Shown piece after piece: positions 6,214-30,309 of a DNA stretch of 32,101 nucleotides. This DNA is from Marivita sp. (GTDB lineage Bacteria; Pseudomonadota; Alphaproteobacteria; Rhodobacterales; Rhodobacteraceae): NCBI RefSeq assembly GCF_020055675.1, contig NZ_JAIPUS010000030.1, forward strand, positions 1 through 32,101. Direction: 5' to 3'. The notes beneath the pieces are model-generated. The model was not told the origin of the DNA. It saw nothing but the letters and a program-made list of their open reading frames with translations, and made no database searches. Within the stretch, counting starts at the first letter, position 1. Each line of letters opens with the position of its first letter. A program made the translations under genes and the position numbers.

Positions 6214-8817
6214 TCAATCCGAGCTTTCGAGAAAGGCGGCCGGGCTGTCACGCAGCGCGGTTTTGGTGCGGCTCCAGGATAGGTGAAGCTCTTGTGCGAG
6301 TTCCGCCAGGGTCGCATCGGAGGCATCGGGGACTGTGTCTTGCAGATTGCGCAAGCAAGCGTTGAGGTCCTGCGCGCCGAACACAGCCGCAGAACCAGCC
6401 ATGCGATGCGCCTCGCTGGCAAGGGAACTGCGGTCGGTGTCTTCCGAAAGGGTGGTCAGAGCAGCGATGAAGCTATTCATCTCGGTGACGAGGTCATGGT
6501 AGATATTGCGCAGCATGTCTTCCGGCACCATTTCGACCAGCTGCTCAAGCACCTCGGCATCCAGAAGCGGTGAGTCATCCTCCTGTGCGCCGGGGACGGC
6601 CCCTGGCGACGCATCCCGCGCCAGAGTGGTTGAGAGGGTCTGCCTGAGGCTTGCAAAGCTGAGCGGCTTGATCATCACGTCACATATGCCTGCGGCCTGA
6701 AACGCGGCGATTTCTTCGGGCATGGCATGAGCGGTGGTGGCGATGATCGGCACATCAGCTGCAGCACCGCCCCGCGCACGGATCTGCCGAGTCGCTTCGA
6801 TGCCGTCCATGCCGGGCATCGAAATGTCCATCAGGATCGCATCGAAGGCACGCGTCTGCGCTGCCAAAACACCCTCATGCCCATCATGGGCTTCGAACAC
6901 GCGATGCCCGTCGCGTTCCAGCATCTCGCGGGCAACAATGCGGTTCGTCGGATTGTCCTCCACAACGAGGATTTCCATGGGAGCCAGCCTGGTTTCCTCC
7001 TGATCGGGCGGCGTGTCCGCAGCTGCCAGATCTTTTGGCGCATCGGCGGATTCTGCGGGCAGAGAGAGCGGCAGGCGGAGCCAGAACACGCTGCCTTCGC
7101 CGGGTTCGCTCTCTGCTCCAAGCTCGCCATTCATCAACTTTGCCAGGCGTTGCGAGATGGCCAGTCCCAACCCGGTGCCGCCGGTTGCGCGCCCGTAGGA
7201 TGCGTCGACGGTGACGAAATCATCGAAGATCCGTTCGACATCCGCTTCGGCGATACCGATGCCGGTGTCGGTCACGCGGATTTCGACCGCATCGAGTCCC
7301 TCATTGCAGTCGGCTTCGACGGTGACGACCCCGTTGCGTGTGAACTTGAGCGCGTTGCCGACGAGGTTCAGCAGGATTTGCCGGATCCGGTTCCGATCGC
7401 CGAAGACCTCGTGCAGGGCTGGGCTTGGCGGGGTCAGCCGGAGCTGGTTGGCCCCATCCAGCGCCTGGCCGGCCTGGCCCTCGACGATCTCTTCGAGCAG
7501 CAGCACGAGATCGAACCGGCTTTGTTTCATCGACATCTTGCCGACGTCCAGCCGCGAGATTTCCAGCACGTCATTGACATGGGCCAGAAGCGTTTTTCCG
7601 GAATTTCGGATGATGCGCAGATAGCGCCTGTGGGGGGCGTCAAGCGTCGCCGGGTCGAACAGGTCCAGTGTGCCGAGGATGCCGTTGAGCGGCGTGCGCA
7701 TCTCGTGGCTCATCACGGCCAGCAGGTCCGCCTTGGACTTTTCGCCGGCCACGGCGCGATCCCGCGCGTCGCGCAGGGTGTTCTCGGCCTTAACACGATC
7801 CGAAATGTCGCGGATGAAACCGACGATGATGTCGCCTTCCGGACCCTTGGCCGCGGCCAGCGCGAGGTCGACCGGGAAAATCTCTCCTTTGCTGTTGCGC
7901 GCCTCAAGCTGAACGATGCCCTTGCCGATCACCGACGCTTCTCCACCTTCACGGTACCGTTGCATGCCATTGCGATGCATCTTCTGCATGTGTTCGGGAA
8001 CCATGAGTGGACCCATGTCGGCCCCGATCACCGTGCCGCGCGAATAGCCGAAAGTGCGTTCCGCGGCTTCGTTGTATTCGATGATGCGGCCATCCATATC
8101 GGTGACCACGATCGCATCGAGCGATGTCGAGACGATGGTTTTCATCCGGTCGCTCATCTGGCGCAGGTCGTTTGCCGAAGCCTCGATCCGCTGGACCATG
8201 CGCACGAGCAGCACGATCATTGCCAGCAGGAGAACCAACAGGGCCAGGGCGAGCAGTGCGATATCGAGCAGCGTGCGCGAGACCGAGGCGCGCCGCTCGT
8301 CGCTGAGCCGCGAGAAGATCTCGATCCCGGCGATGGCGGTTTCGCGGAGCAACCCCTGCGCCGCGCGCGCCTCCCGGGCAAGCTCGTCGAGCTGGGCACG
8401 CAGCGCGCTGTCGCCGCCGTCGATGATCGGGATGGTTTCTTGAAAGAAACCGCCAAGATCGACTAGAGCCGCGGCAACGCGCTCGTCTTCGCGAAGCTCT
8501 GCGTAGATCGGACTGTCGCGCAGCGTCGCGTATCGGCTGTAGAAGATGTCAAAGCGCAACCGCACTGCGTCAAGATCGGGATTTTCGGCAAAGTGCTGGC
8601 GCGCGGCTTCGGTTTCCAGCGCCTTCGCCTCGACTTCGGCCTGCGACAATGTCCACTGGACATTGTCCGAATTGGCCGTGGCCAGCGACCGCAACTGTTC
8701 GCGCACATCGGAAACAAAATAAAGCAGGGTTGCCAAAATCACCAAGGCCACGAAGACGATGAGTCTCCGCAGCCCGGCCTTGTCCTTGATCATCAACCGC
8801 GGCCCGCTCTGTTTCAC
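6214..8817 (-). CDS. membrane hybrid histidine kinase (PAS-HisKA-HATPase-REC-HPt)
   Basis: An 867-residue sensor kinase. A membrane segment (about 18-36), a helical periplasmic sensor region (37-183) and a second membrane segment (184-207) are followed by a short linker and a PAS domain (about 225-345). Next come HisKA with His371 (MSHEMRTPLNG), the HATPase with N-box NLVGNALKF, DTGIGI and GGTGLGLAIS, a receiver domain with Asp664 (LMDISMPGMDG), Thr695 and Lys717, and a C-terminal HPt domain with His804 (EAHRMAGSA). It carries a complete His-Asp-His relay whose last step should phosphorylate a separate response regulator; the obvious candidate is the NarL-type gene at 9668. It starts with GTG; AGGAGG lies 12 bases before it, unusually far. 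It follows the periplasmic protein gene by 31 bases, so the two are probably one operon. Confidence 0.93.
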   Translation of the reverse strand: MKQSGPRLMIKDKAGLRRLIVFVALVILATLLYFVSDVREQLRSLATANSDNVQWTLSQAEVEAKALETEAARQHFAENPDLDAVRLRFDIFYSRYATLRDSPIYAELREDERVAAALVDLGGFFQETIPIIDGGDSALRAQLDELAREARAAQGLLRETAIAGIEIFSRLSDERRASVSRTLLDIALLALALLVLLLAMIVLLVRMVQRIEASANDLRQMSDRMKTIVSTSLDAIVVTDMDGRIIEYNEAAERTFGYSRGTVIGADMGPLMVPEHMQKMHRNGMQRYREGGEASVIGKGIVQLEARNSKGEIFPVDLALAAAKGPEGDIIVGFIRDISDRVKAENTLRDARDRAVAGEKSKADLLAVMSHEMRTPLNGILGTLDLFDPATLDAPHRRYLRIIRNSGKTLLAHVNDVLEISRLDVGKMSMKQSRFDLVLLLEEIVEGQAGQALDGANQLRLTPPSPALHEVFGDRNRIRQILLNLVGNALKFTRNGVVTVEADCNEGLDAVEIRVTDTGIGIAEADVERIFDDFVTVDASYGRATGGTGLGLAISQRLAKLMNGELGAESEPGEGSVFWLRLPLSLPAESADAPKDLAAADTPPDQEETRLAPMEILVVEDNPTNRIVAREMLERDGHRVFEAHDGHEGVLAAQTRAFDAILMDISMPGMDGIEATRQIRARGGAAADVPIIATTAHAMPEEIAAFQAAGICDVMIKPLSFASLRQTLSTTLARDASPGAVPGAQEDDSPLLDAEVLEQLVEMVPEDMLRNIYHDLVTEMNSFIAALTTLSEDTDRSSLASEAHRMAGSAAVFGAQDLNACLRNLQDTVPDASDATLAELAQELHLSWSRTKTALRDSPAAFLESSD

Positions 8818-8848: not shown

Positions 8849-9367
8849 TCAACGCGTTACCTCAAGGCGGTCAAGTTGCCAGATGCTTCGAGAATAGTAC
8901 ACTTCCGACTGGAACTTCGGATCAGAATCATAGGGATAGACAATCCAGAGTGGCCCTTTCTCGCGGATCGACATGGGTTTGCCGTTTCGTTCAAAGGCGA
9001 GCAGGGCGTGATCATCCGAGGCATCGGCCCGAGGGACCTCGACGGCGTAATCATTGAGCGCGGTGGCCGTCAGATCACCGCCACCGGCGCCCACAGCCTC
9101 GACCAGATCGACGAGCGCGACGCCGGTAAAGGTCTGCACGCCCTCTGTCCAGATCGTCGTCGTCGTGATCGACGTTTTGTCAAACTCTTCGAGCATCTCC
9201 CGATCGAAATGCGCCTCGGCCCCGACATTGCTGTGGGTGATGTCGCCGCTTATGCGCAACAGCACGGGTCCTTCGGGTGCTGCCAGCGGATTGGCCGTGG
9301 CCGCGACACCCCACAAGATTGACATCGTGAGGAGTGCACCGGTCACTGCGTTATGCAAGCCCGTCAT
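8849..9367 (-). CDS. periplasmic protein with molybdopterin-oxidoreductase-like fold, no cysteine (probable sensor partner)
   Basis: A 172-residue protein with a signal peptide (hydrophobic stretch to about residue 22, cleavage near ATA-NP at 25). The mature part ('LRISGDI', 'GVALVDLVEAVGA', 'ALNDYAVEVP', 'KGPLWIVYPYD', 'WQLDRLEV') resembles the sulfite-oxidase-type molybdopterin-binding fold in stripped-down form. There is no cysteine anywhere, so the Mo-ligating cysteine of that family is missing and catalysis of that kind is unlikely. It is first in an operon with the hybrid kinase, which suggests it binds a periplasmic ligand or otherwise modulates the kinase. ATG at 9367 follows AAAAGG at about 9 bases. 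The fold assignment is moderately sure; the sensor role is inference. Confidence 0.75.
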   Translation of the reverse strand: MTGLHNAVTGALLTMSILWGVAATANPLAAPEGPVLLRISGDITHSNVGAEAHFDREMLEEFDKTSITTTTIWTEGVQTFTGVALVDLVEAVGAGGGDLTATALNDYAVEVPRADASDDHALLAFERNGKPMSIREKGPLWIVYPYDSDPKFQSEVYYSRSIWQLDRLEVTR

Positions 9368-9400
9368 TTTATTTACCTTTTCTCGTTAACACACTCAGAG

Positions 9401-9415
9401 GTTGCACCGTTGCAC
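9401..9415 (+). repeat. tandem GTTGCAC direct repeat upstream of the sensor operon
   Basis: GTTGCAC occurs twice with one base between (9401-9407 and 9409-9415) in the untranslated leader of the kinase operon. It may be a regulator half-site pair or chance; nothing else supports a function. Confidence 0.25.
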
Positions 9416-9445
9416 GAAACGTCCATTCTGTCGCTGGTTCTGCGG

Positions 9446-9460
9446 TATAGTACACCTATA
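9446..9460. promoter_or_regulatory. palindrome TATAG-N5-CTATA overlapping the sensor-operon -10 element
   Basis: A perfect 5+5 inverted repeat with a 5-base centre (TACAC) lies inside the AT-rich divergent intergenic region between the kinase operon and the response regulator. It covers the proposed minus-strand -10 hexamer (9455-9460), so a protein bound there would block that promoter. The response regulator at 9668 is the natural candidate, but this is untested. Confidence 0.4.
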
Positions 9461-9483
9461 CTTTTGGATAGTTTAATTATCAA
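9455..9483 (-). promoter_or_regulatory. sigma70-type promoter of the periplasmic-sensor/kinase operon
   Basis: On the minus strand TTGATA (9478-9483) and TATAGG (9455-9460) are separated by exactly 17 bases, matching housekeeping-sigma consensus at 5 of 6 and 4 of 6 positions. They lie about 90 bases before the ATG at 9367. No equally good pair was found for the plus-strand response regulator in the same 300-base gap. Confidence 0.5.
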
Positions 9484-9667
9484 ATGGGACAAGTGGCACA
9501 TCTCTTGCGACAATGCGCGTCTGAAGGAAATTTCTTAACTTTGTCCAAAGATTGCCACCATTGACCAATAGTGAGGCTGCACAATCCCGCCGAACGGCTC
9601 GACCTGCCTGATGTCCCGTAAGGCGGCGCAAAAGGCAGCTTGTAAAGATTGAATTGAGGTCAACGTA

Positions 9668-10270
9668 ATGCGCATCCTTGTGGCTGACGATCACGATCTG
9701 GTCCGAGAGACCATCGCGGCCTTCCTGATCGGGGAGGATATCGACGAAGTCCGTTGCGTGGCGACGCTTGACGAAGCGATTACCGCGACAGAGGAAAGCG
9801 GAAGTTTCGACCTTGTTCTGCTCGACTACCACATGCCGGGGATGCGTGGACTCGAAGGTCTGGCCCGGATGAAAACGGTAAATGCGGGCCAGCCCGTCGC
9901 GATCCTGTCCGGCACGGCAAGCCGAGACGTCGCCGATACCGCGCTGAAGGCCGGGGCGCAGGGCTTCATTCCCAAGACGCTTGGAGCCCGGTCCTTGCTG
10001 ACGGCGGCCCGGTTCATGGCGGCCGGCGAGATCTTCGCGCCTTTCGACTTCATGAACCAGGCGGACGAGTGCGACGGGGTGTCTCTTTCGCCGCGCGAAC
10101 GCGCCGTGCTGCGCGGCATCTGCGAGGCGAAGTCGAACAAGGAAATCGCCCGCGACTGCGACCTTCAGGAGGTCACGGTCAAGCTGCATGTCAAGACATT
10201 GAGCCGGAAGCTGGGTGCGCGCAACCGGACCCACGCGGCCATGATCGCCAGAGACCGTGGACTGGCCTGA
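9668..10270 (+). CDS. NarL/LuxR-family response regulator (REC-HTH)
   Basis: A 200-residue DNA-binding regulator. The receiver domain has Asp7/Asp8, phospho-acceptor Asp53 in 'LLDYHMPG', Ser81 and Lys103. The LuxR-type helix-turn-helix occupies about 138-200 ('LSPRERAVLRGICEAKSNKEIA', 'VKLHVKTLSRKLGARNRT'). GAGGT stands 7 bases before the ATG. It is divergent from the sensor-kinase operon, whose HPt domain is its likely phosphodonor, and its stop is only 19 bases before the first polysaccharide gene. This makes it the probable activator or repressor of the polysaccharide genes and possibly of its own and the kinase's promoters. Family assignment is sure; pairing and targets are inferred from position. 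Confidence 0.93.
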   Translation: MRILVADDHDLVRETIAAFLIGEDIDEVRCVATLDEAITATEESGSFDLVLLDYHMPGMRGLEGLARMKTVNAGQPVAILSGTASRDVADTALKAGAQGFIPKTLGARSLLTAARFMAAGEIFAPFDFMNQADECDGVSLSPRERAVLRGICEAKSNKEIARDCDLQEVTVKLHVKTLSRKLGARNRTHAAMIARDRGLA

Positions 10271-10289
10271 GCGGCCTTCCGGAGCACAG

Positions 10290-13200
10290 ATGGAGCCGTC
10301 CATTCCGACATGGTCGGGGGTCCGTCTGTTCGTGCCGGCGCTGACGCAGGAACCGGTCCAGGAGGGGCTGCGCCTGCTGTCGATGGCATTGATGCTTGCC
10401 GTACTCTATCACGGTGCGCTGCTGCCCTACACGCATGGCAACACCTACGACGCCTTCATCCACATGTTCTTTGCGGACAGCTATAATCGCAGCTGGTTCG
10501 ACGTGTGGGAACCGCGCTGGTACACGGGTTTTGCAACGACATCCTATCCGCCCGGCACGCATATGGCCCAGGCGGCGCTGATGAACATCATGCCGTTGCG
10601 CGCGGCGTTCATCGTCGTTCAGCTTGGTGGGCTCGTTCTGCTGACTGTCGGGGTCTACCGCTTTTCGCGGCTGTGGGTCGGGGACCGTGCCTCGGGCTAT
10701 GCCGCGCTGATGCTGGTGCTGGCGTCGTCGGTTTCCGAGACAGTCCACCTGTTCGGCCAACTGCCGACGATCTGTTCGCTCGGGCTGTTCCTGAATGGTT
10801 TGCCCTGGGTTTTTCGCTGGATCGCGCGGGGTGGCTACGGCAATCTTTTCGCGGCAACGGCCTTGGCCGCCGCCACCACCGCCGCGCATCATGTCACGAC
10901 GATTTTCGGCGGCGTATTGTTCGTCTTTCCGCTCGCGCTGCATGCCTGGGTCATTTACCTGCGGTCCTGCAAAACGACTGGACGCCCGTGGTGGCGGCGC
11001 CTGTCGATCTGGTTGCAACCTGTCGGGCGCGGCCTGGTTCTGGGTGTGTTGATGGTGGGCGCAATGGTGTTGACCGTGTTTCCCTACTGGGCCTGGTCGG
11101 TCAGCGATCCAATCACTCAGGTATCGATCCCGCATGGATCGCGAGAAAGCTTTATCGAGCGTCCGGACCTTGGATTTGTCTTCTTCGTGCTGCCCTGGGG
11201 CCTTGCGCTGCTGTTCTTGCCGTATGTGCTCTTCAAGACCTTGACCACCCGGCTCTGGCCGCTTGGTGGGGCGGTATTTTTCTGCTTCGTGCTGGGCACG
11301 GGCGGCACGACTCCGGTGCCGCGCGCGATTCTGGGCGGGGCGTTCGATATTCTCACCCTCGACAGGTTCACCTTTTGGGCAACCATCCTCATCCTGCCCT
11401 TTCTCGGACTGATGCTGGACAGCCTGCTGCATGGCCGGTCGCGGCGTATCCTGCGCGAGGCGCTTGGTGCCTTGCTGCATCGCGGCATTGTGGCAAGCCT
11501 GTTTCTGGGCTTTGTTGCCATGTCGATGCTGGCGGCCATTCTGCCATCGTTCCGGCCGACACAGCCTGACTTCATTGATCCCGCGCCCATCGTCCAGTTT
11601 CTCGACTCCGACCAGCATTACCGCTGGCGCTACCTGACGCTCGGGTTCGGCGACCAATTCGCGTATCTCTCGGCCCAGACCACGGCGCTGTCGGTTGATG
11701 GCAACTATCATTCCGCGCGGCGTCTGCCGGATCTCACGCGCTACTCGGTCGAGCGGCTCGAGAACGCGAAATACCTGGGTGTTCCCGGTCTTGGATCGCT
11801 CCGTCAGTTTCTGGTCAACGCCGAGCGGTACAATCTGAAATATGTCTTTGCCAATGACGCTTTCTACGATCCGCTCTTGTGGTTTTCGGGATGGTCTCCG
11901 CTGAACCGTCTGCAGAACGGCGTGGTGGTCTGGGAACGGCCCGACATGCCGCCGCTGCCGCGCCACCAGCCTCGGCGGTCGTTTTCCGTTGCACAGCAGA
12001 TGATGTGGGGCATCCTGCCGCCTGTTGCGCTGACTGTCGGGCTGGTCATTCTGCTTGCCGCAGCTGTGGCAAGCGTGCGCAGCGCGCGTCCGGCGGATGT
12101 GCCGCCCATGGCGATGGCCGACAGCTATCCCGATCCTGCGCGGGTGCGTGTGCTGGTTGTTGGGCTGCTCGCACTGGCCGTCTGTGCGGTGGCGGCCATC
12201 AGCGCGCGCACCGTGATCGAGATGCGCAAACCTTTGTCTCCCGAGAGCGTCATCGCCCGGTATTTCGGCCATCTCGACTTCCGGCGGTTCGAGGATGCGC
12301 ATGGTATGCTCGACCCCGTCACGCGCGCCAATCTCGAGGACTCGCTTTTTGCCTGGCGCTGGCGCGGTGGGCTGATCGCTTCTTATGGCAAGCTCGACGG
12401 TCTCAGGATCATCACGCTTGACGTGCAGGGTGATCTGGCGGACGCGGTGGTCGAACTTGATTGGCTGACCGCATTGGAACTGGTGCCGGAAAGACGCGAG
12501 GTCCGGCTGGTGCAGCGGGAGGGCCAATGGTTCGTCATCCCCGAAGACCTGAGGCCGTGGCAAACGCCCGAACGGCTGTTACGTGCGCCTCAGGTCGCCT
12601 GGACGACGATGGGGCGACGTCAGCCGCTGCCGGATAGCGACCTGCACCGCGATCAGCTGGACAGGCCGCGCATCGTCGTCAACGGCGCCAACCTGGTACG
12701 TCTGGACGGTCTGCTTTCGGTTGTCGGGCAGGTCACGAATGCCGACGCGGATCCCGCCCATGTCACGCTTCATGCCGATGCACTGGCCAATGGTGTGAGC
12801 CAGTCCCGCCAAGCGGCAGGAACGATTGCCGCGCATCGTTTGCGCCCGGCCGAAAGCGCCGGGTTCCGCGTGACGTTCGAAAATGTCCTGTCGCTTGAGG
12901 ATGCAGAGGCGCAGGGCGGGTTTGATCCGACCTCGTTCATTCCGCCGGAATTCGACACGCGCCCCGATGGGGCCGCAATCGACGTGCGCACTGTGGTGCG
13001 CACGGATGGGCATTATCGCGGCATCGCCCTTACGGGGCTCGATTTCGAAAAAACAGCCCAAGGGCTTGTTCTTGAGGGTCTTGCCAGCAACACCGGAATC
13101 GAAACCTCGACCATCTCGTCGGTGCAGGTTCTGCTTTATGACATGGATGGCCGGCCGGTCTGGGCCGAAACCGGGTTTCTGCGCGGCAACCTGTACCCGG

Positions 13201-13418
13201 GGCAGAGCGAGCCGTTTCAAGTGGCCGTGCCGGAGTGCGATCAGATCGAGATCGTGGCGGCGATCCCGCCCGAGACGATCATTGCGAATGGCGGAAGCCA
13301 GTACGCCGATCTCGATCCACCGGGTGCCGCCACGGCAACCTGGCCGCTTTCTGGCCTTGGCGGATGTTTATCTGCGCGCCTGCATGTTTCGACCATGACC
13401 TATGCCCCGCTGGATTGA
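10290..13418 (+). CDS. GT-C-like polytopic membrane protein (PTPS-related/YfhO-like) with long C-terminal soluble region
   Basis: A 1042-residue membrane protein. About a dozen hydrophobic segments lie between residues 28 and 640, with an acidic first outer loop ('TYDAFIHMF', Asp54 and His58, then 'WEPRWYTGF' and 'SYPPGTHMAQ'). This pattern is characteristic of the 6-pyruvoyl-tetrahydropterin-synthase-related/YfhO-type GT-C membrane proteins, where such an Asp is the catalytic site of glycosyltransferases using polyprenyl-phosphate sugars. After the last membrane segment come an NTF2-like stretch (about 650-757) and a beta-rich tail (about 770-1042) in which I see two FxLYD-like beta-sandwich repeats ('VVGQVTN...', 'LEGLASN...'). 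The ATG at 10290 has GGAG 5 bases upstream; the in-frame ATG at 10257 lies inside the regulator gene. It could be a transferase or a polymerase; the exact reaction is unknown. Confidence 0.75.
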   Translation: MEPSIPTWSGVRLFVPALTQEPVQEGLRLLSMALMLAVLYHGALLPYTHGNTYDAFIHMFFADSYNRSWFDVWEPRWYTGFATTSYPPGTHMAQAALMNIMPLRAAFIVVQLGGLVLLTVGVYRFSRLWVGDRASGYAALMLVLASSVSETVHLFGQLPTICSLGLFLNGLPWVFRWIARGGYGNLFAATALAAATTAAHHVTTIFGGVLFVFPLALHAWVIYLRSCKTTGRPWWRRLSIWLQPVGRGLVLGVLMVGAMVLTVFPYWAWSVSDPITQVSIPHGSRESFIERPDLGFVFFVLPWGLALLFLPYVLFKTLTTRLWPLGGAVFFCFVLGTGGTTPVPRAILGGAFDILTLDRFTFWATILILPFLGLMLDSLLHGRSRRILREALGALLHRGIVASLFLGFVAMSMLAAILPSFRPTQPDFIDPAPIVQFLDSDQHYRWRYLTLGFGDQFAYLSAQTTALSVDGNYHSARRLPDLTRYSVERLENAKYLGVPGLGSLRQFLVNAERYNLKYVFANDAFYDPLLWFSGWSPLNRLQNGVVVWERPDMPPLPRHQPRRSFSVAQQMMWGILPPVALTVGLVILLAAAVASVRSARPADVPPMAMADSYPDPARVRVLVVGLLALAVCAVAAISARTVIEMRKPLSPESVIARYFGHLDFRRFEDAHGMLDPVTRANLEDSLFAWRWRGGLIASYGKLDGLRIITLDVQGDLADAVVELDWLTALELVPERREVRLVQREGQWFVIPEDLRPWQTPERLLRAPQVAWTTMGRRQPLPDSDLHRDQLDRPRIVVNGANLVRLDGLLSVVGQVTNADADPAHVTLHADALANGVSQSRQAAGTIAAHRLRPAESAGFRVTFENVLSLEDAEAQGGFDPTSFIPPEFDTRPDGAAIDVRTVVRTDGHYRGIALTGLDFEKTAQGLVLEGLASNTGIETSTISSVQVLLYDMDGRPVWAETGFLRGNLYPGQSEPFQVAVPECDQIEIVAAIPPETIIANGGSQYADLDPPGAATATWPLSGLGGCLSARLHVSTMTYAPLD

Positions 13419-13428
13419 GGAGACCAAC

Positions 13429-14493
13429 ATGCCGCTCAATGTGTTTCGGTGCATTTTCCTTGGTGGGCTTCTCGGGGCCGCGCCAGTTGCTGCTGATAGC
13501 GCCTGGCAGGCGGACGCCTTCGGGCTTTACCGGTCTGGAACCGACGCTGCGCGCGACCGATGGTCCGGGCTTCGCAATGGCGCAAACACGTTCCTGCAGG
13601 CGCCCGGCGCCTTGGAGCGCCTGCATTTCATTGCCGGGCCGAAAAGCGCCGTGGCCGGCAAGGACCGGGTGCATCTTGTCGTTCTTGGCTTTGACGCCGA
13701 TGGAAACCTGGTGGCAGACGGCACGCCCATCCGCATTGCGACGGGGCAGGGTGACCGGGTTACGCGCGACACCGCAGGTGGTATTGCCGATGTGCTGCAT
13801 CGCCCCTCGACTGTCGCCGGGACCTACGTCGCCGGGGCAGAGACCGACAAGGTCCAAAGCCTGCGAGCCACCTATCGCGTGACCGCCGACCTGGGCAGCA
13901 TCCAGCCGTGGATCGCCCCGCAGGACCCTGTCCTGCCGGAAACACTGGCGGACATCCGGCTGCCTGACCTTGTGGACCGATATGGCAATCCGGCCGAAGA
14001 CGGCATCGGACTTAGCGTGTGGCTGACCGACAGTCGCGGACAAGGCGCCCGTCTGACCGGGGAGGCGACGGGAGGCGCAGGATTGGCACAGTTCATCGTG
14101 CGTGACATGACGGGCGGGCTGGATGCGCAGGCCTTTCTCGGAGGTGTCCCCAGTGAACATCGCGCGGTTGAAAGCCTGCCGCTGCGGCCGGATGGACCGC
14201 CTTTGCTGCGCCAGGAACCAATGCCCGATATCGGCGCGATACGCCTGCTCGTCGGACCATTCCGCACGGCGGCGGGACATTTGATGGGCGATGGCGTCGC
14301 GGTGCGCTTGTCGGTGTCACGGGACGGGACCGCTGCGCGGGTTCATGACACTTGGGTGCGCGACGGCATGGCCGAGGCCTTGTTGCCCTGGCCTGCGGGA
14401 CAAACAATCGCGGTACGCGTCGAAAGCCCGCTGGGCGCGTTCGAGACCGAGCTTTCTGGTGCGCCGTCTCGGGATGGGAAGGTGCAACCATGA
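13429..14493 (+). CDS. secreted protein of unknown function in the polysaccharide locus
   Basis: A 354-residue protein with a signal peptide (MPLNVFRCIFLGGLLGAAPVAA, cleavage near residue 22). The mature part has no membrane segment and is rich in predicted beta strands; stretches such as 'KDRVHLVVLGFDADGNLVADGTPIRIATG' split into alternating hydrophobic strands, and 'LPDLVDRYGNPAEDGIGLSVWLTDSRG' resembles bacterial Ig-like (invasin-type) repeats. I do not recognise a named family. ATG 13429 is chosen because GAGGAGA lies 5-11 bases upstream and the signal peptide begins there; an in-frame ATG at 13402 is inside the preceding gene. It starts 10 bases after that gene and overlaps the next by 4 bases (ATGA), so the three are translationally linked. 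A structural or scaffolding role in polymer handling is inference. Confidence 0.75.
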   Translation: MPLNVFRCIFLGGLLGAAPVAADSAWQADAFGLYRSGTDAARDRWSGLRNGANTFLQAPGALERLHFIAGPKSAVAGKDRVHLVVLGFDADGNLVADGTPIRIATGQGDRVTRDTAGGIADVLHRPSTVAGTYVAGAETDKVQSLRATYRVTADLGSIQPWIAPQDPVLPETLADIRLPDLVDRYGNPAEDGIGLSVWLTDSRGQGARLTGEATGGAGLAQFIVRDMTGGLDAQAFLGGVPSEHRAVESLPLRPDGPPLLRQEPMPDIGAIRLLVGPFRTAAGHLMGDGVAVRLSVSRDGTAARVHDTWVRDGMAEALLPWPAGQTIAVRVESPLGAFETELSGAPSRDGKVQP

Positions 14494-15992
14494 TGGGCTG
14501 GAAGACACTTGGCTTGGGTCTGGGGGTCGTGTTGGTATTCGTGGGTGCGCTGATGGCAACGGCGCGCGCCTTTGATGCCGCCGCCGAACGCGAGACACTC
14601 TATCGTTATCTCGACGACGTGCTCGACCCGGTCGCCGATACCGAATGGACCCATGATTGGGAACCTCCGCAGCGCGTGCTTGCGCGACCGATCACCAAAA
14701 ACGACGAGGTTATCCTTGGCGCCCGCATTGGCGAGGCCTGGTCTGCCTTCGGGGTTGCACAAAAGACCGGCGAGACAGCCATCCTTGCCGATTGGTTCGG
14801 CGGCGTGGCGCTGGAACGCGCGCAGCATGCGGCGGCCACGGCCCATGCCGATGAAACGCGGATGGCGATGCTGCGCCAGACGCTGAGACCGGAATTCCAT
14901 CATCTGGACGGATCGCTTGTCCAGCTTGGGTCAGAGACGCTCACGGTGCGCTATGCACCAGATCACTATGATCTTGCGCAGGATACGTTCCGCACCACCC
15001 TCCTGCGGCGGTCGACGGGGTGGCACGTGATCGGGCATGAGCGGCTTGCCAGTGCCCCTGTCGACCCGCCCGACGCGCCCGTGGCCCTCGAAGGAAAATT
15101 CGTGGGCGTGAACTACTATCCGGCTCAAACGCCCTGGTCCCTGTTCTGGCCGGGCTATGATGCGACGATCATCGCGGAAGACCTGCGTCTTGTTGTCGAT
15201 CTGGGCGGCAACGCAGTGCGGATGTTCCTGCCTGTCGACGATTTTGCGCCCGGATCCGACCTTGAGCGCAACTTGGCCAATCTTGGTGATTTCCTTCGTC
15301 AGGCAGAGGCCCTCGGGCTTCAGGTCATGCCGACGCTTTTCGACATGAAGGGCAATTACGATATCGCCACATGGGACGCAGATCTCGTGAAGCTCGATGC
15401 TGTGCTGCCGGTGCTTGCCGCCTCGCCGGCGGTAACGGTCATCGACATCAAGAACGAGCCCGATCTTGATTTCGAAACCCATGGAAAGGCCAATGTGCTT
15501 GCCTGGTTGCGCACGATGGCTGCCGAGATCAGGCGCGGTGCGCCGGGCATCCCCCTGACGGTGGGATGGGCCTCGGCCGAAGCAGCCGACCTTCTGGTGC
15601 CGCACCTCGAAGTGGTCAGCTATCACGATTATGCGCCCCTTGAAGGCACTGCCGACAGGCTCGCGGCGGTGCGCGCTGCGGCAGGTGACAAACCGGTTCT
15701 GGTGACCGAGATCGGCGCATCGGCCTGGTCGTTGACGCAGGATTTTCCGTCCTCGGATGCGGCACAGGCGCGGGATCTTGCAACACGGCTGGACGGATTG
15801 ACCGATGCGGATGGCGTCCTTCTGTGGACGCTGCATGATTTTCCCGACCCCGACAGCCGCGCGGTCGGATCTTCCCTCTGGGTCAGGGGACTCCAGGCCC
15901 GATACGGGATCTACGACGAGACGGGCAAGCCGCGCCCCCTGGCCGCAATCCTGCGCACCACTTTCGATAAAATTCTGAACGGAGAAAAGTGA
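14490..15992 (+). CDS. membrane-anchored glycoside hydrolase, clan GH-A (cellulase/GH5-like)
   Basis: 500 residues. An N-terminal hydrophobic segment (about 5-27) is an uncleaved anchor or a signal peptide. Residues 30-190 form an extra domain ending 'TTLLRRSTGWHVIGHERL', reminiscent of NTF2-like folds. A TIM-barrel hydrolase domain spans about 200-495. Probable acid/base Glu323 (IDIKNEPD) and nucleophile Glu407 (PVLVTEIGAS) fit clan GH-A retaining enzymes; 'VGVNYYP' at 205-211 and 'VVSYHDY' at 375-381 also fit. Polysaccharide loci often carry such a hydrolase to trim or release the polymer in the periplasm. It starts at the ATGA overlap with the previous gene (a second ATG follows at 14493). 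Family is secure at clan level; glycan specificity cannot be read. Confidence 0.85.
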   Translation: MMGWKTLGLGLGVVLVFVGALMATARAFDAAAERETLYRYLDDVLDPVADTEWTHDWEPPQRVLARPITKNDEVILGARIGEAWSAFGVAQKTGETAILADWFGGVALERAQHAAATAHADETRMAMLRQTLRPEFHHLDGSLVQLGSETLTVRYAPDHYDLAQDTFRTTLLRRSTGWHVIGHERLASAPVDPPDAPVALEGKFVGVNYYPAQTPWSLFWPGYDATIIAEDLRLVVDLGGNAVRMFLPVDDFAPGSDLERNLANLGDFLRQAEALGLQVMPTLFDMKGNYDIATWDADLVKLDAVLPVLAASPAVTVIDIKNEPDLDFETHGKANVLAWLRTMAAEIRRGAPGIPLTVGWASAEAADLLVPHLEVVSYHDYAPLEGTADRLAAVRAAAGDKPVLVTEIGASAWSLTQDFPSSDAAQARDLATRLDGLTDADGVLLWTLHDFPDPDSRAVGSSLWVRGLQARYGIYDETGKPRPLAAILRTTFDKILNGEK

Positions 15993-17236
15993 TGGCACGC
16001 ATGCTGAAACTGGCCCTCGTCTCGGCCTTCCCGCCGGGACGTCAGAGCCTTAATGAATACGGATGGCACCTTGCCCACGCGTTGGCCGAACGGCCGGATG
16101 TGGCCGAGGTGGTCATCATCGCCGACATCCTTGACGATCCGAAGCCCGAAGCCAGCCTGCCGGCCAAGATCCGTGTCGAGCGGGTCTGGCGCTTCAACCG
16201 GGTCGGCACGGTGGCGACCTTGCTTGGGGCGTTGCGCCGCGTGCGGCCCGACGGGGTGATCTACAATCTGCAGATGGCCAGCTTTGGCGACCGCGAGCTG
16301 TCTGCCGCTCTGGGCCTGTTCGCTCCGATGTTGTCGCGTGCGATGGGCCTGCCGAGCGGCGTGATTGCCCATAATCTCGTGGCGGGCGTCGATCTCGAGA
16401 ACACCACGCTGCGCGGCAAGCGGCTGCGACAGGCCGTGGTGCGCATGGGCGCGCGCGTCGTGACAGGTGCGCTGTGCCGCGCGTCCTATGTCACGGTAAC
16501 GCTGCAGAGCTACGCCACCCACCTTGCAGCAGCTTATCCGCGTGCCCGAACGGCGCTGGTCCCGCATGGCACCTTCGATACAGACCAGCGCGCCTGGGTC
16601 GATCTTGAAACCCGGCCGCGACGCATCGTGACCATGGGCAAGTTTGGCACCTACAAGCGGCTCGAGACGCTGCTCGCGGCGTTTGACCGTCTGCGCAGCG
16701 ATCCCGGTTTTGCCGATTACGAGCTGGTGATCGGCGGGTCGGATCACCCTGCCACCCCGGGCTACATGGACGATCTCAAGTCCGCGCGGGCGGATGATCC
16801 GGGTGTCGTCTTCGCGGGCTATGTCGCAGAAGAAGATGTGCCCGGCTTTTTCGAATCCGCGCGGCTTTCGGTCTTCGACTACGAGACGACCACGGGCAGT
16901 TCCGGTGTTCTGCACCAGACGGCCAGCTATGGCGCGGTCCCCGTCTTTCCCCGGATCGGCGATTTCGTCGATGTCTGCGAAGATGAAGGGCTTGGCGGCT
17001 ACCATTATGCGCCGGGCAGCGTCGAGGGCATGGCCGAGGCAATGGCCCGACCGCTGGCCAATCCTGCCACTGCCGAAGCGCTGGCCCGTGCCAATCGCGA
17101 CGCGGCCGAGGACCTGCCGATCTCGGATGTTGTCGGATGGCATGTGGATCGGCTGCGCGCGCTGGTGGAGGGCGCAAAGCTGTCTGACATCACTCTGCCG
17201 GGACACCGGGGCGGGCAAGCAGGCAAGGTCGCGTAG
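15992..17236 (+). CDS. glycosyltransferase family 4 (GT-B fold)
   Basis: A 414-residue cytoplasmic transferase. The N-terminal Rossmann half begins 'LALVSAFPPGRQSLNEYGWHLA' and the C-terminal donor-binding half has 'GKFGTYKRLETLLAAF' (216-231) with Lys217 and Lys222, plus 'FDYETTTGSSGVLHQTASYGAVPV' around Glu298, an EX7E-like region of GT4 enzymes. It should transfer a nucleotide-activated sugar to a growing lipid-linked or polysaccharide acceptor; sugar identity is unknown. The ATG at 15992 shares one base with the previous stop and has GGAGA 6 bases upstream. A GTG at 15989 would add one residue. It is the last gene before a strong terminator at 17301. Confidence 0.88.
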   Translation: MARMLKLALVSAFPPGRQSLNEYGWHLAHALAERPDVAEVVIIADILDDPKPEASLPAKIRVERVWRFNRVGTVATLLGALRRVRPDGVIYNLQMASFGDRELSAALGLFAPMLSRAMGLPSGVIAHNLVAGVDLENTTLRGKRLRQAVVRMGARVVTGALCRASYVTVTLQSYATHLAAAYPRARTALVPHGTFDTDQRAWVDLETRPRRIVTMGKFGTYKRLETLLAAFDRLRSDPGFADYELVIGGSDHPATPGYMDDLKSARADDPGVVFAGYVAEEDVPGFFESARLSVFDYETTTGSSGVLHQTASYGAVPVFPRIGDFVDVCEDEGLGGYHYAPGSVEGMAEAMARPLANPATAEALARANRDAAEDLPISDVVGWHVDRLRALVEGAKLSDITLPGHRGGQAGKVA

Positions 17237-17300
17237 CGCGCCTCCCGCAGGCCATCACGCCCGGCAACGCACCGCATCAAAGACCGGACGATCGTCTGGG

Positions 17301-17350
17301 AAACGGCGCTCATTCAAAGGGGGAATCCCCGGCGATCGGGCGCCGTTTTT
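17301..17350 (+). terminator. rho-independent terminator with nested hairpin
   Basis: A perfect 9-base stem (AAACGGCGC at 17301-17309 with GCGCCGTTT at 17340-17348) encloses a second hairpin (GGGG AAT CCCC, 17320-17330), and the stem runs into five Ts. It lies 64 bases after the GT4 stop and divides the polysaccharide locus into two transcription units, unless read-through is regulated. Confidence 0.8.
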
Positions 17351-17625
17351 GCGTCTTGGGCCGCGCGGAAGACGGTTCGGTCCGGGTGCCGGATTTGCCG
17401 GTCTGCCGGCTGAACGAGACAGCTCATCTACCCTTTCGCATAGGTGGTTTTCAAACCTGAGATGGAGCGTGTCCAAACGGTCCGAGGACCATCCCGAAGA
17501 GCGACCCGCTGTCCGTCCGGTCGGTGGATTTGAGCCGGTTTAGCGCGCATTCCAACTTCAGACATCGGTGTAAGACACGCCGTTGGACGTTGACGCAAAA
17601 AACCTCTGCCAAGGGAAGATGAGAA
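17351..17625 (+). promoter_or_regulatory. gene-free leader/promoter region of the GT2-flippase-cupin-barrel unit
   Basis: 275 bases without a credible coding frame, between the terminator and the GT2 ATG; together with 17237-17300 it makes a 389-base gap. It must hold the promoter of the second unit, but no clear -35/-10 pair was found. A short inverted repeat GGTTT-TC-AAACC lies at 17446-17457. The GT2 ribosome site is the purine-rich AAGGGAAGATGAG at 17611-17623. Confidence 0.4.
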
Positions 17626-18465
17626 ATGACCGATCTGAGCCGTTACCGGGAATTTGCCACGCAGCTTTCGACTGCCGTGCAGCCCTCTGCGACTGCACCC
17701 ACCGAGCCTGTTGCGCCCAGCCGTGCCGTCATCGTCGTGCCTTGCTACAACGAGGCCGCCCGCCTTGACGTAAAGGCGTTTCTGTCGGCCTTGCCGAATT
17801 TGCCCGGGGTTGATTTCCTGATGGTCGACGATGGCAGTACCGATGGTACGCACTTCTTGCTGGAGAGCCTCGCTTCACAGGCTCCCGACCGTGTCAGCGT
17901 TCTCATGATGGACAGCAACAGCGGCAAAGCCGAAGCGGTGCGCCAGGGACTGTTGGCGGCAAGCTCCCGCGGGGCGGCCTTTGTCGGTTTCTGGGACGCC
18001 GATCTTGCCACGCCTCTGCACGCCATTGGCGATATGCTGCGTCTGGGCGAGCGCTTTGACGATGTCGCGGTGATCTTCGGATCGCGCCGGTCCATCCTCG
18101 GGCACCGCATCCGCCGCGATGCCTCGCGCCGGATGGTTTCGCTGATCTGCAACCTGATGGCGCGGCTCGCGCTGGGCATGCCGGTGGGCGACACCCAGTG
18201 CGGCGCCAAGCTTTTGCGCAACACATCTCAATTGCGCCAGGCGCTGGAAAAGCCCTTTGCCGCCGGCTGGCTGTTCGATGTCGAACTCTTCGCCCGGATC
18301 GCTGCGCGCGTCGCAAACCGTCATGATGCCTTCTACGAGCAGCCCCTTGCGGAGTGGCACGAGGTTCCCGGCTCGAAAGTGTCGGCACGGGCCGTGCTGC
18401 GCGCCGGGACGCAGATGCTGCGGCTCATCGCGCTGAACCGGTTCGGGGTGTCGTCGCATGTCTGA
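17626..18465 (+). CDS. GT2 glycosyltransferase, ALG5/DPM1-like (probable polyprenyl-phosphate sugar synthase)
   Basis: A 279-residue GT-A enzyme without membrane segments. After a 30-residue lead it has 'VVPCYNEAARLD' (38-48), Asp68-Asp69 in 'MVDDGSTDGT', the metal-binding Asp124-Ala-Asp126, 'GDTQCGAKLL' (188-197) and 'GWLFDVELFARI' (214-225). The last two motifs are typical of dolichyl- and undecaprenyl-phosphate glucosyl/mannosyl transferases, which load one sugar from UDP- or GDP-sugar onto a lipid phosphate at the cytoplasmic face. Such lipid sugars are the donors of GT-C enzymes like the protein at 10290. The downstream flippase gene overlaps its end by 8 bases. Sugar identity is unknown; the mannose-isomerase-type cupin two genes on hints at mannose. 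Confidence 0.87.
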   Translation: MTDLSRYREFATQLSTAVQPSATAPTEPVAPSRAVIVVPCYNEAARLDVKAFLSALPNLPGVDFLMVDDGSTDGTHFLLESLASQAPDRVSVLMMDSNSGKAEAVRQGLLAASSRGAAFVGFWDADLATPLHAIGDMLRLGERFDDVAVIFGSRRSILGHRIRRDASRRMVSLICNLMARLALGMPVGDTQCGAKLLRNTSQLRQALEKPFAAGWLFDVELFARIAARVANRHDAFYEQPLAEWHEVPGSKVSARAVLRAGTQMLRLIALNRFGVSSHV

Positions 18466-19759
18466 CGCAGTTTTCACCCAGTCCGGTGCGGCGGCGCGCG
18501 CACGACTGCATCCCCTTTTTCTGATCGGTCCGGTCACCGTAATATTCCTGTCGGCCAATCTGGCCAATGCGGGCAATCTCGCCTTCAATATGCTGTTCAG
18601 CCGCTGGATGGGGCCAGAGCTGTTCGGCGAACTGGCGGTGCTCCTGACGATCAAACTGGCTGTGCTTGCCCTGCTCAATGCCGTGCAGATGGCGGTGTCA
18701 CGCCATGTCGCCGAAGGCCGCCCCGATCTTGGGGCGCTCAAAAGGCTGAACAGTATCGCACTTCTGGCCGGTTTTGCCGCCTTGCCGGTCATCGCGATGA
18801 CGCTCTGGGTCGGCGGGGTCGGGGAGGCGCTTGGCCTCAGCCATCCCGGGTTGTTGTTGATCCTGGCCGCCGCGCTGCCCTTCGCCACGCCACTTTGCCT
18901 TGCACGCGGTGTCGCTCTGGGGCGCGTTGCGGTCAAAAGCACGGTCCTGTCCACCCAGGTCGAGATGGTGGTCCGCCTGGGCCTTGGCGCATTGGCCTGG
19001 CAGGCCGGGTTCGGCATCGAGGGCGTGACCGTCGCGATTGGCCTGTCCATCCTTGCCGGCTGGAGCGTGATCGGGCGGGACGTGAGTGATTTTTCGGATT
19101 CGGCGCAGGGGGCGCGCCGTTTGGCCGAAGGACTGGCTCTCGCAGCCTTGCCCTTCGGCCTGCTGCAAGCCGCGCAGGTGATCCTTCTGGACGGTGAAGT
19201 GATCCTTGCGCGGCTTTGGCTCGAAGCCGAAGACTCGGGACATGCCGCGGCGCTGTCGCTGTTCCAGCGGATCGCCTTCTTTGCCAGCTTCGGGCTTGCG
19301 TCGGTTCTTCTGCCGGTCGTTGCACGGGCGCACAGTCGGTCGGAGCCGGTGGTCCGCGCCATCCTGCCGGTTGCTGCACTGTTTTGCGCGGTCTCCCTGC
19401 CGCTGGTGCTTGGCGCGGTGATCATACCCGAGACTCTGTTGCGCCTTGTCGTCGGTCCCGACTACCTCGCGGCGGCCCCTCTGCTGTGGAAAGCTGCCGT
19501 TGCTGCCATTGCCTTTACCGCCAGTTACCTGCTTGCCACCGCGCTTGCCGCATCCTCCGACTATCGCGGTATCGCACTGGTCGCGATGTGCGTGCCGCTT
19601 CAGATTGGCATGATGATGATGGCCGCCTATGGCGCGGCGCCCCTGCTTCTCGCGGAGCTGCTGACCATCAAGCTGATCTGCCAACTTGGCCTGCTGGCCG
19701 CGTTGCTGGGCACCTGCGTGCAGCGGTTCGGCAAATTCCCGATCTCTCTCCAGTCCTGA
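18458..19759 (+). CDS. polysaccharide/lipid-linked saccharide flippase-like membrane protein (Wzx/MATE-type)
   Basis: 433 residues with about twelve hydrophobic helices, of the MOP superfamily as in Wzx and PelG-type proteins: 'LANAGNLAFNMLFSRWMGPELFGELAVLLTI' near the start is the usual first-helix signature, and 'FQRIAFFASFGLASVLLPVVAR' matches the second half. It would move a lipid-linked sugar or oligosaccharide across the inner membrane. It overlaps the GT2 gene by 8 bases, so the pair is translationally coupled, fitting a model in which the GT2 product or a larger lipid-linked unit is its cargo. No Wza or Wzc homologue is in the locus. Confidence 0.85.
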   Translation: MSDAVFTQSGAAARARLHPLFLIGPVTVIFLSANLANAGNLAFNMLFSRWMGPELFGELAVLLTIKLAVLALLNAVQMAVSRHVAEGRPDLGALKRLNSIALLAGFAALPVIAMTLWVGGVGEALGLSHPGLLLILAAALPFATPLCLARGVALGRVAVKSTVLSTQVEMVVRLGLGALAWQAGFGIEGVTVAIGLSILAGWSVIGRDVSDFSDSAQGARRLAEGLALAALPFGLLQAAQVILLDGEVILARLWLEAEDSGHAAALSLFQRIAFFASFGLASVLLPVVARAHSRSEPVVRAILPVAALFCAVSLPLVLGAVIIPETLLRLVVGPDYLAAAPLLWKAAVAAIAFTASYLLATALAASSDYRGIALVAMCVPLQIGMMMMAAYGAAPLLLAELLTIKLICQLGLLAALLGTCVQRFGKFPISLQS

Positions 19760-19786
19760 AATACAACTTCAAGAAAGGAAATAGCC

Positions 19787-20170
19787 ATGAACGCAGAAGC
19801 TAACTTGACACTCTGCACCCCATACGAACAGGTCGGTGAAACGCGGCCATGGGGCCATTTCAGCAGCCTGATGCGCGGTCCGCGCTTTCAGGTCAAATCG
19901 ATCGTCGTCGACCCTGGCGGCATCCTCAGCCTGCAAAGTCATGTTCATCGCATGGAGCACTGGATCGTCGTGGAAGGAACAGCGACCGTGACAATCGGCG
20001 ACGAAAAGAAGCTTGTCGGCGAGAGCGGCGCGGTTTTCGTGCCCTTGGGTGCCGTTCACCGGCTTGCCAACGAGGGCAAGCTGCCCATGCGCCTGATCGA
20101 GGTGCAGGTCGGACCCTATCTTGGAGAAGACGACATCACCCGCTACGAAGACGTCTACGACCGCTCGTGA
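19787..20170 (+). CDS. stand-alone cupin of mannose-6-phosphate isomerase type II
   Basis: A 127-residue protein equal to the C-terminal isomerase cupin of bifunctional ManC/AlgA enzymes, without the nucleotidyltransferase half. It shows 'RPWGHFSSLM' (20-29), 'VDPGGILSLQSHVHRMEHWIVVEG' with metal ligands His52, His54 and Glu57, and His91. It probably converts fructose-6-phosphate to mannose-6-phosphate, the first step to GDP-mannose, or acts on a related sugar. AAAGGA stands upstream of the ATG and the gene follows the flippase by 27 bases. The missing GDP-mannose pyrophosphorylase must be elsewhere in the genome if mannose is used. Confidence 0.85.
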   Translation: MNAEANLTLCTPYEQVGETRPWGHFSSLMRGPRFQVKSIVVDPGGILSLQSHVHRMEHWIVVEGTATVTIGDEKKLVGESGAVFVPLGAVHRLANEGKLPMRLIEVQVGPYLGEDDITRYEDVYDRS

Positions 20171-20232
20171 CCTCTTTCAGTGTCGCGCCTCCGCCTCTTT
20201 CTTCCTTTCCCCAAACCTGTCGAGTACCTGTC

Positions 20233-21048
20233 ATGTTGCGTTTTCTTATTGCCCTCCTGTTGTCCCTTGCCGGTCTTGCAGCCGTGCCATCCTCCGCCAC
20301 AGCCCAGCCGGGCTTCAAGATGCCGGGGGCGACCGGCGGCATCTTGCGCTTTCCGAACACCAATCAGGACGAAGACGAGGGAAACGCCTTTGCCGAAGCC
20401 TGGCTCAAGCAGGGGATCCTCCTCTGGCAGGAGGGCGACATCAAGGTGCAGGCCTTCTACCTTGGGAACTTTGTGCGCGATACCGAACCCAATCCCTGGA
20501 ACAACTCGGTCAAACACGGTCTTGGCCTGCAGCTTTCGACACGGGTCGGAAAGCACCTCGAATTGACGTTCAGCGGCCGTCACGACTGGTACAGCGAACG
20601 TGACACGGACAACACGCTTTCGGGATGGCGCTTTGCGGTGGACTACTATTATTACCGTCACTTCCCCGCCGAGACCGACCTCAAGGTCGGACCGCTGGAC
20701 TACACGTCAAGCATCTTCAAGAGTTATGGCACCCTGGCCTATCCCGGCTCTCTTGAGGAGGACGACACAAATATCGTGCTGACCGCCGGGGGCGAGTATT
20801 CGTGGGAATTCCAGGTAGGTGAGCGTGATCTGCTTGCCGTGCCCTTTGTCGACCTGCACCTGTCGTGGGATCGTGACGCCAACAATTACAATAACAAGGC
20901 GATCCCGGCGGTCGGCGTCAAGCTACGCAAGCCAATCCATTATGGCGAGCTTTTCGGCGGTGTGAAATTCGAGGCCGACTACCGCTGGGTCGACGAAACG
21001 CTGGATACAGGACCGATGCTGTTTGCGGGATGGTACAAGGGTTGGTGA
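20233..21048 (+). CDS. small outer-membrane beta-barrel protein, last gene of the polysaccharide locus
   Basis: A 271-residue protein with a clear signal peptide (MLRFLIALLLSLAGLAAVPSSATA, cleavage near residue 24) followed by alternating hydrophobic/polar strands rich in Tyr and Trp ('VKHGLGLQLSTRVGKHLELTFSGRHDW', split by turns). It ends in 'GWYKGW'; the terminal aromatic residue is the usual signal for outer-membrane insertion. The length suits a barrel of about 12 strands with no TPR or other periplasmic domain. I do not recognise a named family. Position suggests the export pore or a surface-attachment protein for the polysaccharide, but this is inference. ATG 20233 lies 62 bases after the cupin gene, within a longer open frame that starts in the shadow of that gene. 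Confidence 0.7.
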   Translation: MLRFLIALLLSLAGLAAVPSSATAQPGFKMPGATGGILRFPNTNQDEDEGNAFAEAWLKQGILLWQEGDIKVQAFYLGNFVRDTEPNPWNNSVKHGLGLQLSTRVGKHLELTFSGRHDWYSERDTDNTLSGWRFAVDYYYYRHFPAETDLKVGPLDYTSSIFKSYGTLAYPGSLEEDDTNIVLTAGGEYSWEFQVGERDLLAVPFVDLHLSWDRDANNYNNKAIPAVGVKLRKPIHYGELFGGVKFEADYRWVDETLDTGPMLFAGWYKGW

Positions 21049-24288: not shown

Positions 24289-24388
24289 AGCCGTGCTTTT
24301 TGTATTGGGACGGCGGATGCCAGGCACCCTGTCATGACTGTATGTCGGCAAGTTACCCAGCCTTTTTCATCGTATCGGGAAAGAACCT

Positions 24389-27565: not shown

Positions 27566-27567
27566 GA

Positions 27568-30306: not shown

Positions 30307-30309
30307 CGC

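Follow-up and report, generated by a model that had tools for sequence, protein, structure and literature searches.

Three-component transmembrane glycosylation systems have been described as Gtr, CsbB-GtcA-YfhO, GacI-GacK-GacL and the GT136 system of Citrobacter youngae, and, in the portions of these accounts available to us, one of them is proposed to use a Wzx-type flippase (GacK) and another a MATE-type flippase (PMC8035078, PMC11127046). Some such systems anchor the synthase via a separate membrane protein, according to the available part of one account (PMC8035078). The Agl pathways of Haloferax (AglJ/G/I/E-AglB and AglD-AglR-AglS) are outlined in the consulted part of their description as building on dolichol phosphate, with transfer by AglB or AglS (PMC3871713). 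The excerpted account of Psl from Pseudomonas lists PslB as a GMP/PMI enzyme, several glycosyltransferases and the inner-membrane endoglycosidase PslG (PMC10569066). Here, we describe a gene cluster on a 32,101-nucleotide stretch from Marivita sp. (hereafter the window), which is one contig (C18) of the 3.6-Mb host genome. The system has a core of six genes, encoding a GT-C-like glycosyltransferase, a secreted Ig-like protein, a GH-A protein, a GT4 and a GT2 glycosyltransferase, and a flippase. Gene content, order, co-occurrence and folds were observed, and from them we infer every biochemical step. On balance, we favor a conserved envelope-glycan system in which synthesis would start on a lipid monophosphate, the product would be flipped, and the GT-C protein would carry out the transfer in the periplasm. 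Genes were called from open frames, codon-position composition and family matches, and the core genes are the following:

10290..13418, plus strand: GT-C-like glycosyltransferase with a predicted STT3-like fold and C-terminal NTF2-like and beta-rich domains
13429..14493, plus strand: secreted Ig-like (beta-rich) protein with an N-terminal hydrophobic segment; conserved
14490..15992, plus strand: membrane-anchored protein with NTF2-like and GH-A (GH5-like) parts
15989..17236, plus strand: GT4 glycosyltransferase (PF13692/PF00534)
17626..18465, plus strand: GT2 glycosyltransferase, apparently of the polyprenyl-phosphate sugar synthase type (PF00535)
18458..19759, plus strand: MOP-type flippase with 14 hydrophobic segments in a simple scan and no Pfam match

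A scan of named bacterial genomes with two peptide patterns, which may miss divergent members, yielded 44 loci. Order was counted for five core genes (GT-C, GH-A, GT4, GT2 and flippase). All five were present in 31 of the 44 loci, and each of these 31 showed one of two fixed orders. The gene order of the window, with the Ig-like secreted protein between GT-C and GH-A, was shown by 21 of 21 window-type loci. In the second order, found in 10 of 10 Hellea-type loci, GT2, flippase and GT-C lie on the strand opposite to GT4 and GH-A; an Ig-like protein adjoins GH-A there (the profile was applied to L043 only). Ten of the 13 incomplete loci end at a contig end (L020, L021, L027, L030, L035, L037, L040, L041, L044 and L051). 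As for the others, the missing half of L049 (Thioclava) is found on the same 54-kb contig at a distance of about 25 kb, L038 has a divergent flippase that was detected by profile, and in L050, like L051, the GH-A protein is cut to its first part. The cluster in L049/L070 (Thioclava marina) adjoins repABC-type genes, pointing to a probable plasmid. The labels of the metagenome-assembled genomes with L021, L035, L046, L050 and L051 (Mycobacterium, Halomonas, Bacteroidales and Acidimicrobiales) may be due to misbinning and were not taken as host range; the tree groups L021, L035 and L046 with GH-A proteins of Alphaproteobacteria.

Within the order Rhodobacterales, 292 genomes were surveyed. GT-C matches were obtained in six, comprising five full-length proteins, one of them in the host, and a remnant of 50 residues (G116). 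The GH-A profile matched 16 genomes, with full-length matches (E 2.0e-185 or better) only in the five possessing a full-length GT-C; the remaining 11 were partial (E 9e-9 to 3.5e-5). A single copy of the flippase was found by profile in each of the five cluster genomes and none in G116. In G116 (L016:4868-10993), the regulators are kept but the cluster has apparently been lost: what is left of GT-C is a stub, after which come frames that we read as integrase- and transposase-like. Of 385 genomes drawn from across the class, among which the Hellea-type genomes did not figure, only the host matched, indicating a rare system of patchy distribution. The conserved gene order and co-occurrence rule out a chance neighborhood, and the gene run is a real, conserved system. 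The initial annotation had proposed just such a co-occurring glycan system, to be given up if homologues proved scattered in other genomes; order and co-occurrence held against that test. The gene order it had read (NarL regulator, GT-C, beta-rich protein, GH-A, GT4, GT2, flippase, cupin and outer-membrane-type protein) was likewise borne out.

Relatives were also found on plasmids. Among 72,556 plasmid records, GT-C (cut-off E<=1e-5) matched four, all from Deinococcus, with 40-50% identity, and GT4 (cut-off E<=1e-40) matched the same four. A flippase-like gene near GT-C was detected by profile in three of the four, and as a tblastn fragment (E 4e-4) in L097. In a search of 30 proteins, the profile of the window Ig-like protein tied it to L043 and to Deinococcus counterparts near the plasmid GT-C genes (E 3e-12 to 6e-6 for the latter). 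GH-A relatives were recognized with E 7e-55 in Deinococcus sp. KNUC1210, 7e-9 in D. grandis, 3e-5 in D. actinosclerus and only 0.003 in D. aquaticus. GT2 and GT4 are fused in one open reading frame on three of the four plasmids (L095:7026-8981, L097:7095-9224 and L098:7209-9161). The annotation of KNUC1210 further lists AlgF and an acyltransferase of the MBOAT type, as well as a PAS kinase alongside a small molybdopterin-oxidoreductase protein. A second, more distant GT-C-like protein is located close to the first in two records (L095:19009-22218 and L097:2153-4975). The GT-C match of KNUC1210 (L096:12001-14909) is split over two frames, which may mean a break in the gene or in the sequence.

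The best Protein Data Bank (PDB) matches of the GT2 profile were GtrB sll0501, dolichol-P-mannose synthase and ArnC (E 4e-20 to 3e-14), suggesting an enzyme of the polyprenyl-phosphate sugar synthase type; the homologue in KNUC1210 is annotated as dolichyl-phosphate beta-glucosyltransferase. In the first step of the proposed pathway, GT2 would transfer a hexose to undecaprenyl phosphate, probably mannose with GDP-mannose as the donor, the enzyme class being taken from the profile and the sugar from the operon partners. A whole GMP_PMI is encoded in 12 and PMM in six of the 44 loci, and the host has a complete GMP_PMI elsewhere in its genome; because of these genes, mannose appears the likeliest sugar, at least for window-type loci. 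The host copy may also explain why the window keeps only the PMI domain. GMP_PMI is reduced to this domain in L022, L024 and L055 as well, and L033 carries GMP and PMI as separate stretches (9266-9640 and 19901-21040). The cupin of the initial annotation is thus present but is, more exactly, the C-terminal PMI domain of GMP_PMI, and the system is self-contained only in part, as the GDP-mannose pyrophosphorylase domain is missing from the window and encoded elsewhere in the host. In the second step, GT4 would add a further sugar or make the acceptor at the cytoplasmic face. The flippase showed a weak NCBIfam match of Wzx type (E 0.0055), and its profile matched a KNUC1210 protein annotated as an oligosaccharide flippase; a PDB sequence search with the same profile gave no match. 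Since three of the five cluster genomes, among them the host, lack a GtrA-type protein, the MOP-type flippase is the natural carrier, and in the third step it would move the monophosphate-linked sugar across the membrane.

A starter phosphoglycosyltransferase was sought in the five cluster genomes through two families, Bac_transf and Glycos_transf_4. G175, a genome about 99% complete that contains the whole cluster, has no Bac_transf enzyme. Glycos_transf_4 occurs in each of the five, and the only copy of G175, located beside MurF, is by eye MraY. Thus, a full cluster can exist without a starter of the two families searched other than MraY, which favors a start by GT2 on undecaprenyl monophosphate. 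A tblastn search with a single query detected no phosphoglycosyltransferase in the 44 loci, the four plasmid loci or the window, apart from a weak match (E 5e-4) that falls within the PMM gene of L052. Both results speak against a Wzx/Wzy-like system in which the starter is encoded elsewhere and GT-C serves as an unusual polymerase of undecaprenyl-diphosphate repeats. We consider such a system unlikely, even though it would account for the MOP flippase and GT4 and would agree both with the fold of GT-C, which is nearest to oligosaccharyltransferases, users of lipid-linked oligosaccharides, and with Bac_transf starters somewhere in four of the five cluster genomes. Pfam scans of the cluster proteins revealed no Wza or Wzc partner, and no match to a Wzy family, although Wzy proteins are too variable to be excluded in this way and were not searched elsewhere. 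No ABC exporter was matched between 9668 and 21048, and no processive inner-membrane synthase of the BcsA or Alg8 type is present, the sole GT2 having 279 amino acids without hydrophobic segments.

The GT-C protein has about 1,040 residues and no Pfam match in the window. Its structure model matched STT3 and AglB best, suggesting a fold of the STT3 type, whereas a PDB sequence search with the GT-C profile gave no match. An invariant aspartate is encoded at 10449-10451, and the C-terminal part includes a domain that we take to be NTF2-like. The structural matches might be read as protein or lipid glycosylation, in which GT-C would act like an oligosaccharyltransferase on envelope proteins or lipids. 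However, the WWDYG-type motif of oligosaccharyltransferases was found in none of 30 GT-C sequences, and some loci are accompanied by polysaccharide-acetylation genes, making this explanation very improbable. In the fourth step of the favored pathway, the STT3-fold GT-C with its periplasmic NTF2-like and beta-rich domains would transfer the sugar outside, so that a surface polysaccharide is built or extended.

GT-C could polymerize or only decorate. In the latter case, GT2, flippase and GT-C would form a side-chain system of the Gtr/TGS kind that decorates a polymer made by another locus, on which GT4, GH-A and the Ig-like protein act. The three proteins agree with the composition published for such systems, MATE or Wzx-type flippases included, as far as the portions available to us go, and the two Poly_export proteins encoded elsewhere in the host imply other polysaccharide loci. 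Against it, GT4 is present in 37 of 44 loci and shares an open reading frame with GT2 on three of four Deinococcus plasmids, and the cluster recurs whole in distant hosts that presumably need not share a backbone polymer. We judge this alternative possible though doubtful. Thus, the flippase-dependent glycan with a periplasmic GT-C that had been proposed initially stands as regards the flippase and a probable periplasmic GT-C step.

The GH-A assignment of the protein at 14490-15992, which had also been made initially, was confirmed, and DIKNEPD and VTEIG are both present in it. As expected of a retaining GH-A (GH5-like) enzyme, the window protein possesses a glutamate after beta-4 and another after beta-7: the acid/base Glu324 (codon 15456-15458) and the nucleophile Glu408 (codon 15708-15710; residue 1 corresponds to codon 14487). 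Among 38 orthologues, the nucleophile was glutamate in all, whereas the acid/base residue was glutamate in 27 and glutamine in 11, namely in all 10 Hellea-type proteins and in L054 (a Tabrizicola metagenome-assembled genome). The GH-A tree needs two separate changes of the acid/base residue, and at least two are forced by its starred branches, with bootstrap values not fully settled. L050 and L051 encode only the membrane anchor and the NTF2-like part (202-204 amino acids). In D. grandis and D. actinosclerus only the N-terminal (anchor/NTF2-like) part was matched by the GH-A profile and no barrel was recognized; D. aquaticus gave the same, weak N-terminal match, and a second gene there (E 2e-4) matches positions 64-286. 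Glutamine substitution and missing barrels rule out hydrolysis by GH-A as a fixed catalytic part, contrary to the hydrolase named in the initial annotation. Because some members have lost the barrel or changed the acid/base residue, the anchored NTF2-like domain is the constant part. Members that keep the nucleophile but lack the acid could, judging from the residues, be transglycosylases that use an activated donor. Myrosinase, which has glutamine at the acid/base position, offers a parallel. The homologue of the secreted protein in L050 matches Invasin_D3/Big_1. In the fifth step, the Ig-like protein and the membrane-anchored NTF2/GH-A protein, with its NTF2-like part as the constant element, would bind, guide or trim the chain.

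Taken further, these features might amount to an additional exopolysaccharide route beside Wzx/Wzy, ABC and synthase, with a start on undecaprenyl monophosphate free of phosphoglycosyltransferases, MOP flipping, periplasmic polymerization by the STT3-fold GT-C and a non-hydrolytic GH-A partner. In such a route, GH-A would be a transglycosylase with an activated donor where glutamine is present, or a pure scaffold where the barrel is gone. We advance this proposal only tentatively.

Several observations weigh against the favored envelope-glycan pathway. Unlike GtrB, the window GT2 (279 amino acids) shows no hydrophobic segment in a simple scan. Neither GMP nor PMM is encoded in the window, and the flanks fetched for the Hellea-type loci revealed no GMP_PMI; the sugar of those loci may therefore be one other than mannose. 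G102 and G175 carry a GtrA-type protein, and the host, G088, G102 and G113 each encode one to four Bac_transf enzymes elsewhere. Foldseek ranks 1-3 for GH-A were GH2 glucuronidase-type chains, so its mannosidase likeness is not exclusive. The outer-membrane-type protein was seen in only four of the 44 loci within fetched flanks, and in three of the five cluster genomes, which leaves export without a constant part to account for it. Rather than polymerize, GT-C might attach single sugars as side chains, and no biochemistry was found for any cluster member.

The remaining features of the region are as follows:

6214..8817, minus strand: hybrid histidine kinase with PAS, HisKA, HATPase, REC and HPt domains (Pfam)
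8849..9367, minus strand: small periplasmic protein with an Oxidored_molyb-like domain (PF00174, E 8.3e-7)
9668..10270, plus strand: NarL/LuxR-type response regulator (PF00072, PF00196)
17330..17345, plus strand: terminator-like hairpin with a T run, separating the two sub-operons (consensus match only)
19787..20170, plus strand: stand-alone PMI domain, the C-terminal part of GMP_PMI (PF01050, E 1.7e-41; TIGR01479 positions 360-466)
20233..21048, plus strand: outer-membrane-type protein with a signal-like N terminus, presumably a barrel; accessory

The regulator is separated from GT-C by 19 bp, and neighboring reading frames of the cluster overlap or almost abut. A minus-strand frame opposite the regulator (9473-10303) had no Pfam match and was dropped. 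The terminator placed between GT4 and GT2 by the initial annotation does exist as a hairpin with a T run but is weak evidence alone, as the region contains 18 such hairpins versus a mean of 12.4 in shuffles. An AbrB-family membrane protein is encoded at 21215-22357, followed at 22957-25225 by a cyclopropane-fatty-acid-synthase-like gene and then a methyltransferase. An ABC-2/HlyD set at 26435-31332 lies past unrelated genes on the strand opposite to the cluster.

The outer-membrane-type protein was matched in 10 of the 292 genomes, strongly (E 8e-138 or better) in three, all GT-C positive, and more weakly in seven others. Relatives in another genus were set aside: the two sites viewed (L080 and L081) adjoin unrelated genes by eye. 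L058 contains an MBOAT gene and L043 one of the TolC type, with relatives by clustering in further Hellea-type loci. Together with MBOAT and AlgF in KNUC1210, these genes are consistent with a secreted polysaccharide. In the sixth step, accessory genes, of the outer-membrane type here and of the TolC type or for MBOAT/AlgF acetylation elsewhere, would export or decorate the product. The Poly_export proteins of the host are encoded at L073 (G000:C11) and L072 (G000:C10). By eye, one of their neighborhoods is Pel-like and the other Kps-like.

A widely used cassette of kinase, small protein and regulator would provide control as the seventh step. The small periplasmic protein matched 185 of the 292 genomes at E<=0.001, and the kinase adjoins the cluster in many window-type loci but stands beside other operons too. 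Six neighborhoods were chosen from strong small-protein matches outside the GT-C genomes (L089-L094). A window-like regulator was found within 3 kb in all six and the kinase was adjacent in five; other polysaccharide genes were present in five (L089, L090 and L094 by Pfam, L091 and L092 by eye), and the sixth has LpxR. Twenty further sites (L100-L119) were then picked among the matches listed and compared with 19 control stretches from the same genomes. Kinase and regulator were both present at 17 of these 20 sites. Two or more polysaccharide markers occurred at eight of the 20 versus none of the 19 controls, a comparison that favors the cluster types of the first six sites, from which most markers were derived. 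Nine of the 12 marker-free sites were viewed by eye; two lie beside flagellar-type genes and the rest beside mixed genes. Thus, the kinase, the small Oxidored_molyb-like protein and the NarL regulator form a cassette shared with different polysaccharide and other operons. Its presence beside other operons in genomes without GT-C rules out a dedicated phosphorelay, and the claim that the system has its own falls. The initial annotation had also placed the kinase with HPt inside an interval from 8849 to 21048, whereas it lies outside at 6214-8817; the gene list for that interval was right except for the identity of the cupin and for the small periplasmic protein that opens it, which went unnamed. 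The shared cassette could also guide searches for further surface operons in Rhodobacterales.

If the proposed pathway is correct, an uncharacterized surface glycan would be made by bacteria as distant from each other as Rhodobacterales, Hellea-type Alphaproteobacteria and Deinococcus, following a lipid-monophosphate principle best known to date from glycosylation in archaea and of side chains. The gene set is compact, and its GT-C is near STT3 in predicted fold without the oligosaccharyltransferase motif. It also offers a natural experiment, in which a glycosidase domain has stayed part of the system although some members have lost its acid/base residue or the whole barrel.

We found no description of the cluster in the open-licence literature, which omits most subscription papers, and the same gene set does not appear in the parts of the Gtr, Agl and Psl descriptions compared. 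In comparison with the oligosaccharyltransferases STT3, PglB and AglB, the cluster GT-C shares the predicted STT3-type fold and lacks the WWDYG motif. The proposed monophosphate lipid, flippase step and outside transfer resemble the Haloferax Agl pathways as partially consulted, and the GT-C model resembles AglB; unlike them, the cluster is bacterial, has no WWDYG motif and includes accessory GH-A, Ig-like and outer-membrane-type parts. Psl, in the excerpted account, likewise combines a GMP/PMI enzyme, several glycosyltransferases and an inner-membrane glycosidase-type protein. PslG presumably belongs to GH39/GH-A. Relatives of a PslA-type starter, PslD (Wza) or PslE (Wzc) were not seen among the Pfam matches of the window cluster. 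The GH-A protein differs from GH5_18 exo-beta-1,4-mannosidases and related GH-A enzymes by its membrane anchor, its NTF2-like domain, the glutamine acid/base residue in 11 of 38 and the absent barrel in L050/L051. The initial annotation had seen no match to any known system and thereby overlooked the multi-component transmembrane glycosylation systems, which in the accounts available to us likewise combine a polyprenyl-phosphate sugar synthase, a flippase and a GT-C. By sequence, the cluster GT2 appears to be such a synthase of GT-A fold, and the MOP-type flippase, with predicted transport, and the GT-C fold correspond to the other two components. What sets the cluster apart from these systems is the GT-C of about 1,040 residues with its NTF2-like and beta-rich domains, together with the GT4, Ig-like secreted and membrane NTF2/GH-A partners. 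The multi-component transmembrane glycosylation systems are thus the closest known kind, of which the cluster is apparently an undescribed variant.

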